Source: Rhizobium acidisoli
Lineage (GTDB): Bacteria; Pseudomonadota; Alphaproteobacteria; Rhizobiales; Rhizobiaceae
Length of the DNA: 64,000 nucleotides
Reading direction: 5' to 3'
Assembly: GCF_002531755.2 (NCBI RefSeq)
Contig: NZ_CP034998.1
Coordinates: 62,001-126,000, forward strand
Shown: positions 23,441-39,051 of the stretch, piece by piece
Position numbering within the stretch: position 1 is the first letter of the stretch
Layout of the letters: every line of letters begins with the position of its first letter
Position numbers and translations under genes: made by a program
Notes under the pieces: generated by a model
Database searches by the model: none
Told to the model about the DNA's origin: nothing
The model's input: the letters and a program-made list of their open reading frames with translations, nothing else

Positions 23441-23517
23441 GCACCCGTAGCTCAGCTGGATAGAGCACCAGACTACGAATCTGGGGGTCAGGAGTTCGAA
23501 TCTCTTCGGGTGCGCCA
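23441..23517 (+). tRNA. tRNA-Arg (anticodon ACG)
   Basis: The sequence folds as a cloverleaf: acceptor arms GCACCCG (23441-23447) and CGGGTGC (23507-23513), D arm AGCTCAGCTGGATAGAGC, anticodon stem CCAGA/TCTGG with loop CTACGAA (anticodon ACG at 23475-23477), T loop TTCGAATC, and an encoded CCA at 23515-23517. It reads CGN arginine codons after A34-to-inosine editing. It marks the left border of the accessory stretch. Confidence 0.95.
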
Positions 23518-36287: not shown

Positions 36288-37169
36288 ATGTCCAGTCATA
36301 ACGCAGCCAAGTCAGGCACCTTCAAGATCGGCGGCGAGATCGCGGTCAACCGCCTCGGTTTCGGCGCCATGCGCGTCACCGGCAAGGGCATCTGGGGCGA
36401 GCCCGACGATCATGCCGAATCCATCCGCACGCTGCGGCGCCTGCCGGAACTCGGCGTCAACTTCATCGATACCGCCGATTCTTACGGTCCCGATATTTCC
36501 GAATGGCTGATCAAGGAAGCGCTGCATCCCTATGGCGGCAAATCCGTCGTCGCCACCAAGGGCGGCCTCACCCGCCACGGCCCCGACATCTGGCTGCCGG
36601 TCGGCCGCCCGGAATATCTGATCCAGCAGGCGCATAAAAGCCTGCGCAATCTGGGGCTCGAGCAGATCGACCTCTGGCAACTGCACCGCATCGATCCGAA
36701 AGTGCCGGCCAAGGAGCAATTCGATGCGATCAAATCGCTGCTCGATGCCGGTCTCATCCGCCATGCCGGCTTGAGCGAAGTCTCTGTCGCCGACATCGAG
36801 GCGGCGTCGAAACACTTCAAGGTCGCCACCGTCCAGAACCGCTACAATCTCGTCGACCGCACCAGCGAAGACGTGCTCGATTACTGCGCCAAGCACAATA
36901 TCGGCTTCATCCCCTGGTTCCCGCTGGCAGCCGGCGATCTCGCCAAATCCGGCTCGCTGCTCGATACGATCGCTAGGAAACACAATGCCGCGCCAAGCCA
37001 GATCGCGCTCGCCTGGGTGCTGAAGCGCAGCCCGGTGATGTTGCCGATCCCCGGCACCTCCAAGGTCAAGCATCTCGAAGAAAACGTCGCGGCTGTCGAT
37101 ATCACGCTGTCGGACGAGGAATTCTCGGCGCTCGACGCTGAGGGCCGGAAGGTGTTTAAGGCAGCTTGA
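36288..37169 (+). CDS. Aldo/keto reductase
   Basis: The 293-residue enzyme has the AKR barrel with the catalytic tetrad visible: Asp and Tyr in [10 protein letters not shown], Lys in [10 protein letters not shown], and His in LWQLHRIDP. The NADPH-binding end is present in [20 protein letters not shown]. It reduces aldehydes or ketones; the closest look is the YafB/Tas-like group. AGGAGAGG precedes the ATG at 36288. The substrate is unknown. Confidence 0.88.
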
Positions 37170-37194: not shown

Positions 37195-37373
37195 CTGCCT
37201 CTCACCCTAACCCTCTCCCCATTTTACGGGGAGAGGGGACGTGCCTTACGAGAGGTTTGTGGGGAACCGAGAGGTCGCGGCATATCCCCTTCTCCCCGTA
37301 AATCGGGGGTCCGAAGGACGGGTCGAGACCCGTGGCTCGACCCCGGTGGTCCCGGCAGGCGGATGAGGGGCAG
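37195..37373. repeat. RIME-like palindromic repeat, second copy
   Basis: This is the reverse-orientation counterpart of the element at 21474-21615: it starts CTGCCTCTCACCCTAACCCT and ends GGATGAGGGGCAG. It is longer because a GC-rich block with its own inverted repeat (around GGTCGAGACCCGTGGCTCGACC, 37321-37342) interrupts it. It fills the space after the aldo/keto reductase. Confidence 0.7.
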
Positions 37374-37546
37374 CGGCACCTCCGGTCAGGCCTAAATTTT
37401 CCGCACAATTTTGACCATCCGGTTAAACATGCTGCAAAATGAGGCGGTGGCCTGTTAATTTCAGGGCAAGCCATGCGCTTGCTGCATTGCTGCATTGCGG
37501 TATTTTCGCTGTTCCCGCTCGCATGAACGCGGTACATATATCTCCG

Positions 37547-37666
37547 TAAGCAGCGCACTCCTCCTCCCAGCGCTCTTACATCGGACTGACAACACTCCTC
37601 CTCCCAGTTGTCAGTCAGGATCAAGAGCCTGGCGCACCTCCTCCCGCGCCAGGCTCTTTTCTTTTG
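37547..37666 (+). ncRNA. Small RNA with three anti-Shine-Dalgarno hairpin loops (alpha-r14/cuckoo-like)
   Basis: Three consecutive hairpins each expose CCTCCTCCC in the loop: stem AGCGC/GCGCT (37552-37556, 37570-37574); stem ACTGACAAC/GTTGTCAGT (37585-37593, 37607-37615); and stem AAGAGCCTGGCGC/GCGCCAGGCTCTT (37623-37635, 37646-37658) followed by TTCTTTT, a Rho-independent terminator. This is the layout of the alpha-proteobacterial anti-SD small RNAs (the alpha-r14 or cuckoo family), which can pair with ribosome-binding sites. The 5' end is estimated; ACATATAT at about 37534-37541 could be the -10 region. It lies just before a lipoprotein gene. Confidence 0.85.
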
Positions 37667-37773
37667 TCCCCCCCCGGGGCATTCCACCACGCGCAAATTT
37701 GACTCGGCAAGCACCGTCAGCCTATTTGAACGGGCGCCGCCCGTCCGGTGCGCGAACCGGTTGGAGTTTGATC

Positions 37774-39051
37774 ATGATCGGCAGATGGCGCGGCCCGCGG
37801 GCGGCTTTGACAGGTCTTCTGCTGGCGGCGTTCGCGCTTGCCGGCTGCGGCGGCAGGCCGGTCGGCGTCATGCAGGCGGCCGGCAGCGTGCCGCCCGGCA
37901 CGTCGAAGGTCGATCTTCTCGTCGCGACGACGCGCGCTGCCGACGACAATCCCGCTGTGCTTTTCTCAGGCGAACGCGGCACTGGGCTCACCGTCAACGC
38001 CGTCGATGTCTCGATCCCGCCGGAGGCCAATCGCAAGGTCGGCCAGGTGCAATGGCCAAAGCGGCTGCCGGCCGATCCCTTACGCGATTTCGTCACCGTC
38101 TCCGTCGATCCACTCGAAGGCGAGCGGGCGGGGGAGACCTGGCTGAAGGGCCATATGCCGAAAAGCCGCCGGGTGCTGGTCTTCGTGCACGGCTTCAACA
38201 ATCGCTATGAGGACGCCGTCTACCGCTTCGCCCAGATCGTTCATGATTCGCATGCCGACGTCGCTCCCGTCGTCTTCACCTGGCCCTCGCGCGCCAGCAT
38301 CTTCGATTATAATTACGACAAGGAAAGCACCAACTATTCCCGCGATGCGCTGGAAGAGCTGCTGACCCGCACCGCCGCCAATCCCGCCGTCAGCGACGTC
38401 ACCATCATGGCCCATTCGATGGGCACATGGCTGACCGTCGAAGCGCTCAGGCAGATGGCGATCCGCAATGGTCACGTCGCGCCCAAGATCAACAATGTCA
38501 TCCTCGCCTCGCCGGATCTCGATGTCGACGTCTTCGGCCGCCAATTCGCAAGCCTCGGCAAGGACAAGCCGCATTTCACCATCTTCGTCTCCAGGGATGA
38601 CCGGGCTCTGGCGCTGTCGCGGCGCATTTCCGGCAATGTCGACCGCCTCGGCCAGATCGATCCTTCGGTCGAGCCCTATCGCAGCAAGCTGGAGGCGGCC
38701 GGCATCACCGTGCTCGATCTGACCAAGCTCAAGGGCGGCGACCGGCTGAACCACGGCAAATTCGCCGAAAGCCCCGAGGTGGTGAAGCTGATCGGCGACC
38801 GGCTGATTGCCGGCCAGACGATCACCGATTCCAATGTCGGCCTCGGCGAGGCCGTCGGCGCGGTGGCGATGGGCGCTGCCCAGACGGCCGGAAGTGCCGT
38901 CAGCGTCGCCGTCAGCACGCCGATCGCGATCTTCGATCCGCGCACCCGCCGCAATTACGACGCCCAGCTGAAGCGCCTCGGCCGGTCGGTCGACAATACC
39001 GTCGGCTCGGTCGGCGACAGCGTCGGCGCCGGCCTGCCGGAAAGCCAGTAA
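37774..39051 (+). CDS. DUF900 alpha/beta hydrolase lipoprotein
   Basis: The 425-residue protein has a lipoprotein signal (RGPRAALTGLLLAAFALAGC) with lipobox LAGC. The hydrolase core of COG4782/DUF900 follows: VLVFVHGFNNRYEDAVYRFA, then APVVFTWPSRASIFDYNYDK, and the nucleophile elbow MAHSMGTW. A Gly/Ala/Ser-rich C-terminal tail follows (AVGAVAMGAAQTAGSAVSVA). It is likely anchored in the envelope. The start at ATG 37774 is behind TTGGAG. The substrate is unknown. Confidence 0.85.
   Translation: MIGRWRGPRAALTGLLLAAFALAGCGGRPVGVMQAAGSVPPGTSKVDLLVATTRAADDNPAVLFSGERGTGLTVNAVDVSIPPEANRKVGQVQWPKRLPADPLRDFVTVSVDPLEGERAGETWLKGHMPKSRRVLVFVHGFNNRYEDAVYRFAQIVHDSHADVAPVVFTWPSRASIFDYNYDKESTNYSRDALEELLTRTAANPAVSDVTIMAHSMGTWLTVEALRQMAIRNGHVAPKINNVILASPDLDVDVFGRQFASLGKDKPHFTIFVSRDDRALALSRRISGNVDRLGQIDPSVEPYRSKLEAAGITVLDLTKLKGGDRLNHGKFAESPEVVKLIGDRLIAGQTITDSNVGLGEAVGAVAMGAAQTAGSAVSVAVSTPIAIFDPRTRRNYDAQLKRLGRSVDNTVGSVGDSVGAGLPESQ

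Follow-up and report, generated by a model that had tools for sequence, protein, structure and literature searches.

A predicted ar14-family small RNA in Rhizobium acidisoli with an upstream region resembling that of NfeR1

Identity and structure of the small RNA

A segment of about 120 nt in the Rhizobium acidisoli genome very probably encodes a small RNA (sRNA) of the ar14 family with an anti-Shine-Dalgarno (anti-SD) mode of action. It lies in a 64-kb stretch of DNA that was analysed as a whole and is referred to here as the window. The RNA is a further copy of a known family and not a new kind of RNA. As read from the sequence, the locus combines three covarying stems, a C-rich loop shared by all three hairpins and predicted to be exposed, and a terminator, and the region upstream of the locus is conserved. 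The coordinates of all features are given in Table 1.

The Rfam covariance model of ar14 (RF02344) matched the locus over its full length (model positions 1–123; E 2.1e-21), and the score of 118.8 bits stands against a curated cut-off of 58.8 bits. This search bore out the assignment to the alpha-r14 family proposed in an earlier note on this DNA. At the gathering threshold, the Rfam scan did not report ar15 anywhere in the window, and membership of the ar15 family was rejected on that basis. The sole other Rfam match in the window at the gathering threshold was a tRNA gene at 23441–23514.

The earlier note had also described three consecutive hairpins with the same C-rich loop, the last of them a Rho-independent terminator, and both descriptions held. 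The sequence CCTCCTCCC occurred exactly three times in the 64 kb, once in each ar14 hairpin loop, and its reverse complement did not occur in the 64 kb at all. The loop letters were ACTCCTCCTCCCA in hairpins 1 and 2 and ACCTCCTCCC in hairpin 3. All three stems consisted of standard pairs only, and the perfect 13-bp stem of hairpin 3 was followed by the T-rich sequence TTTTCTTTT. A consensus terminator scan, which covered loops of 3–8 only, reported one other site, at 37488–37502 (shuffled mean 0.3). The minimum free energy of the ar14 fold was -51.7 kcal/mol (z -7.73), and none of 200 shuffled sequences was equally stable. Transcription probably begins near 37545, a little to the left of position 37547 given in the earlier note, and probably ends within the T-tract.

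Table 1. Features of the ar14 locus and its surroundings (positions in the window)
Feature	Position	Strand	Remarks
Aldo/keto reductase gene, upstream neighbour	36288..37169	+	Pfam PF00248, E 8.1e-69
RIME-like repeat	37195..37385 (about)		Upstream of the sRNA promoter, outside the sRNA; 59 own-genome matches
Palindrome-like TTTGACC-N4-GGTTAAA, possible operator	37410..37427	+	TTTGACC-N4-GGTCAAA in orthologues
NtrC-like motif TGC-N11-GCG	37430..37446	+	TGC-N11-GC[AG] here in 23/30 loci; published S. meliloti form TGC-N11-GCA
LsrB-like motif TGCG-N6-GCAT	37474..37487	+	TGCR-N6-GCAW here in 30/30 loci, exact TGCA-N6-GCAT in 7/30
LsrB/VtlR consensus GCAT-N3-TG-N3-T	37484..37496	+	Exact here; in 28/30 related loci; predicted site
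Putative -35 CTGTTCC	37509..37515	+	Inferred from 30-locus alignment; weak; missed by consensus scan
Putative -10 TACATA, 17 nt past -35	37533..37538	+	Inferred from 30-locus alignment; weak; missed by consensus scan
ar14 small RNA (Rfam RF02344)	37540..37661	+	118.8 bits, full model
Hairpin 1	37546..37579	+	Loop 37557–37569 with CCTCCTCCC
Hairpin 2	37584..37616	+	Loop 37594–37606 with CCTCCTCCC
Hairpin 3 and Rho-independent terminator	37623..37665	+	13-bp stem 37623–37658, loop 37636–37645 with CCTCCTCCC, T-tract 37657–37665
Likely separate DUF900 promoter TTGACT-N17-CTATTT	37699..37727	+	TTGAC-N16..18-TAT in 18/22 loci; missed by consensus scan
DUF900 alpha/beta-hydrolase gene, downstream neighbour	37774..39051	+	Pfam PF05990, E 1.1e-100

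Conservation and copies of ar14

A DNA query spanning 37390–37780 found matches in all 60 genomes of the genus, and the best 30 loci (L068–L097, one per genome; 25 distinct sequences) were aligned and treated as orthologues. At least one neighbour of the window copy was kept in 23 of these loci (the DUF900 gene in 22, the aldo/keto reductase gene in 18). In the other seven (L087 and L092–L097), orthology is based on the DNA match alone, which takes in part of the promoter. Standard pairs made up 99.8% of the 825 stem cells of the alignment, a value reached by none of 500 shuffles, and sliding the pair partners by 1–3 columns lowered the paired cells to 29–45%. Compensatory changes, the absence of which the earlier note had held would refute its reading, were present: 7 of the 33 pairs changed on both sides (41 cells), compared with a shuffled mean of 4.5, and one of 500 shuffles reached 7. 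The covariation score of 0.165 was likewise reached by none of 500 shuffles. The stems contained 16 further pair types, a number reached by 55 of 500 shuffles and hence not exceptional. The motif CCUCCUCCC, on which the proposal of anti-SD loops had rested, is predicted to be exposed in each hairpin and did not change in any of the 30 loci. Conservation began near 37407 and fell off past the terminator. At the level of sequence, invariant loops, compensated stems and a conserved upstream region are what would be expected under selection, not decay.

The 7.5-Mb genome (five contigs) contains eight ar14 matches, all above the cut-off, of which the window copy scored highest. Contig C1 carries three of them and C3 two, while C2, C4 and C5 have a single copy each. 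The second copy on C1 is locus L003 (C1:4089305-4089425; locus positions 1501-1621). Four copies on contigs other than C1 (L004–L007) have an extra 5′ hairpin in the fold, and in L008 the motif is intact in a single loop. In database draws, run with stricter filters under which weak matches are lost, ar14 was found in 60 of 60 genomes of the genus (own genome included), in 116 of 121 genomes of the family draw (above the cut-off in 108) and in 9 of 190 genomes of the class draw, where the own genome alone exceeded the cut-off. At 9 of 20 scanned loci of the family draw (L100, L101, L103, L104, L105, L107, L110, L111 and L112), two or three adjacent ar14 copies were present within 1 kb.

Matches to the sRNA were also present in 348 plasmid records, most commonly of Rhizobium (224) and Sinorhizobium (97). 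These included record NC_003078 of S. meliloti 1021 (80%), which we take to be pSymB. For L005, the plasmid match ranked first came from Rhizobium etli bv. mimosae IE4771, at 92.4% along the full query. The flanking ORFs of 18 loci were compared by tblastn with ar14 loci L001–L037 (without L011) and L099–L126, keeping the top 14 matches per query. Among the matches listed, the flanks of L003 recurred in L013, L018, L026, L027 and L034, and those of the window copy lay within the genus except for one 31% match in L113.

The upstream region

The sequence upstream of the window copy resembles the published promoters PnfeR1 and PabcR1. In PnfeR1 of S. meliloti, as described in the accessible part of PMC10746234, LsrB acts at TGCA-N6-GCAT from -72, NtrC acts at TGC-N11-GCA from -116 to -101, and the core promoter is CTTAGAC-N17-CTATAT. 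For PabcR1, the portion of PMC8844928 at hand places the LsrB/VtlR consensus GCAT-N3-TG-N3-T at -61 to -49. When the transcript was assumed to start at 37545, GCAT-N3-TG-N3-T fell at -61, TGCR-N6-GCAW at -71 and TGC-N11-GC[AG] at -115, close to the published distances, which here depend on that assumed start and could shift by one or two. The window copy differs from PnfeR1 in its core, CTGTTCC-N17-TACATA, and by one base in each of the NtrC-like and TGCA-N6-GCAT motifs. L003 has the same upstream layout, contains exact TGCA-N6-GCAT and TGC-N11-GCA, and thus fits the motifs reported for NfeR1 better than the window copy. Near-matches to TGC-N11-GCA were common in the flanks (6.6 per kb). The consensus promoter scan reported one other site, at 37411–37440, overlying the palindrome (shuffled mean 0.2).

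Similar elements occurred at other ar14 loci. The LsrB/VtlR consensus was exact in four of the eight own copies, carried one mismatch at the corresponding place in two and was absent in two. The four-hairpin copies L004–L007 have a related LsrB/VtlR box 91–93 nt ahead of the model start; two of these boxes are exact and the other two deviate by one base. The LsrB-like motif (at most one mismatch) was at the same place in 8 of the 28 loci from other genera (L099–L126). In the 7.5-Mb genome, the extended pattern TGCR-N6-GCATTGCTGCANTGC was matched exactly twice, once upstream of the window copy and once upstream of L003. This result is partly built in, since these two groups had served to derive the pattern. 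With up to three mismatches, 27 matches were obtained, compared with 12 for the reversed control. Six of the 27 closely precede ar14 or ar15 copies, and four of these six had not been used for drawing the pattern (ar14 on C2, C4 and C5, and ar15 on C2). We consider it likely that LsrB/VtlR activates transcription of the window copy through 37474–37496. Repression by NtrC at the NtrC-like motif is a more tentative proposal, to which we give slightly less than even weight.

Upstream of the NtrC-like motif lies the palindrome TTTGACCANNTGGTCAAA, a relaxed form of which was found in 23 of the 30 loci and which is mismatched in the window copy. Its pattern occurred at 20 places in the genome, compared with 18 for the reversed control, so that by itself the motif shows no enrichment; ar14 or ar15 promoters account for 3 of the 20 places. 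Two ar15 copies, and some relatives of these copies, have a related element, TTTTNCCAANNGGTCAAA, in their promoters. The parts of the NfeR1 and AbcR literature at our disposal contain no mention of the palindrome TTTGACCA-NN-TGGTCAAA. From these observations a wider arrangement can be sketched, which we regard as speculative and rather doubtful. The ar14 and ar15/AbcR anti-SD sRNAs of this genome would belong to a single LsrB/VtlR regulon distributed across several contigs, with the window copy and L003 under NfeR1-type control by LsrB plus an NtrC-like element. The window lineage would add a palindromic operator with a relative in two ar15 promoters, and one regulator might link both families.

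Proposed function, alternatives and related systems

The family, in versions with three or four hairpins and comparable loops, was reported in 2011 (PMC3927594). The window copy is like the three-hairpin type (RF02344; RFMSmelA075 in PMC3927594) in the number of its hairpins, in the CCUCCUCCC loops, in having variable stems that covary, and in its terminator and multiple copies per genome, and no structural difference was seen. The four-hairpin type (RFMSmelA099), to which L004–L007 correspond, has similar loops and a related LsrB/VtlR box but differs from the three-hairpin window copy by its extra 5′ hairpin. NfeR1 of S. meliloti (Smr14C2, SmelC397; reviewed in PMC7143759) belongs to the same family and has the same structure, and the presumed ntrB start is a possible target of the window copy as well. 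In S. meliloti the nfeR1 locus is tabulated at 1667613-1667492 on the minus strand. As far as the accessible text goes, it silences ntrB and two transporter mRNAs via three redundant anti-SD motifs (PMC10746234, PMC7143759). The single match from a promoter-pattern scan for the S. meliloti NfeR1 locus lay in a Clostridium record and was taken as chance. The AbcR1/2 RNAs (ar15) resemble the window copy in their anti-SD motifs and in a promoter box of the LsrB/VtlR type (own ar15 copies read by eye; PMC8844928, accessible part) but constitute a distinct RNA family.

A similar anti-SD loop is also present in the CcsR sRNAs of Rhodobacter, which the portion of PMC10253847 at hand links to a DUF1127 protein (CIN1 locus). 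Among ORFs of at least 80 residues, no DUF1127 gene was found beside the window copy, the flanks being the aldo/keto reductase and DUF900 genes, and assignment to this DUF1127-linked type was rejected. In L113, a locus from another genus, a 48-residue DUF1127 gene (Pfam E 2.4e-15) directly precedes ar14, as in the CcsR arrangement; coding sequence similar to it, judged by eye, occurs in L116, L119 and L121.

The RNA would act in trans. It would be transcribed from its own promoter and ended by hairpin 3, and its loops, by analogy with NfeR1 of S. meliloti, would pair redundantly with the Shine-Dalgarno sequences of several mRNAs, thereby blocking translation. Transcription, activation by LsrB, repression by NtrC and silencing of ntrB are properties that we propose for this organism. 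The presumed ntrB gene was assigned by position, because it immediately precedes the single ntrC match to exceed the curated cut-off. At its first possible start, which contains GGGAGGCGGCATG, each loop was predicted to pair over the Shine-Dalgarno sequence at -15.0 to -15.6 kcal/mol. For loop 1, 9% of 500 mononucleotide shuffles paired as well, so that this pairing is compatible with targeting and no proof of it. Predicted pairing was -9.0 kcal/mol or weaker at the second possible ntrB start and -11.6 kcal/mol at best at the aldo/keto reductase start. Our confidence that ntrB is a target of the window copy falls a little short of even. Were LsrB activation, NtrC repression and ntrB targeting all to apply, they would create a nitrogen-dependent feedback on NtrBC.

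The surroundings of the sRNA raise the question of whether the three hairpins belong to the adjoining gene. The repeat upstream, behind which the earlier note had placed ar14, was recovered here and is presumably of the kind called RIME, and the DUF900 gene was found directly downstream as had been described. It begins about 110 nt 3′ of ar14 on the same strand, and a stop-free open frame (37495–39051) crosses the sRNA into it, as would suit a cis-acting leader or attenuator of DUF900. We judged this frame accidental because of the sRNA terminator and the likely promoter of DUF900 itself. The terminator stem is perfect, conservation drops beyond it, and TTGAC-N16..18-TAT precedes the DUF900 match in 18 of the 22 loci that have one. 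The four exceptions are L089–L091, where the true upstream sequence may be unseen because the protein match is shorter, and L081, where the second hexamer differs. Moreover, no DUF900 match was found in 8 of the 30 sRNA loci (roughly 1.5 kb fetched). Among the best 30 DUF900 loci of the 121-genome family draw, ar14 exceeded the gathering score in two, the window and a locus from the one further member of its genus that the draw contained. Loop pairing with the DUF900 start was also weak (-9.2 kcal/mol at best). The drop in conservation, the likely separate promoter and the poor co-occurrence thus make the sRNA and DUF900 look like neighbours, not one unit, with some read-through conceivable. 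The leader shared with DUF900, as suggested in the earlier note, was rejected as unsupported, and a cis-acting role of the hairpins is very improbable.

Two further explanations accept the ar14 assignment. The third loop has CACCTCCT in common with the 3′ end of 16S rRNA, and the RNA might on that account act on the translation machinery as a general decoy instead of regulating chosen mRNAs. The defined targets and loop mutants published for NfeR1 (PMC10746234, accessible part) speak against such a role, which we find scarcely credible. Somewhat less remote, yet still unlikely, is that the window copy is a silent or redundant paralogue and that L003 is the real NfeR1 equivalent. The window copy could be silent because, according to the available text of PMC7143759, only one of six copies in S. 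meliloti was reliably detected by Northern blot, and L003 is the copy with both published motifs exact. Against silence stand the top ar14 score of the window copy in its genome and its invariant loops, compensated stems and conserved upstream region in the 30 genus loci, L003 having been compared less deeply. We retain the reading of the window copy as a trans-acting anti-SD RNA of the ar14 family.

The present analysis separates this sRNA from the adjoining DUF900 gene, and RNAs of the ar14 family probably block translation by masking ribosome-binding sites. The window copy is of note mainly because its promoter region resembles that of NfeR1, an sRNA linked to nitrogen regulation in the symbionts of legumes. 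Since two ar14 loci in a single Rhizobium genome have a promoter layout of the NfeR1 type, the NtrBC–sRNA feedback proposed for S. meliloti becomes testable in another genus.
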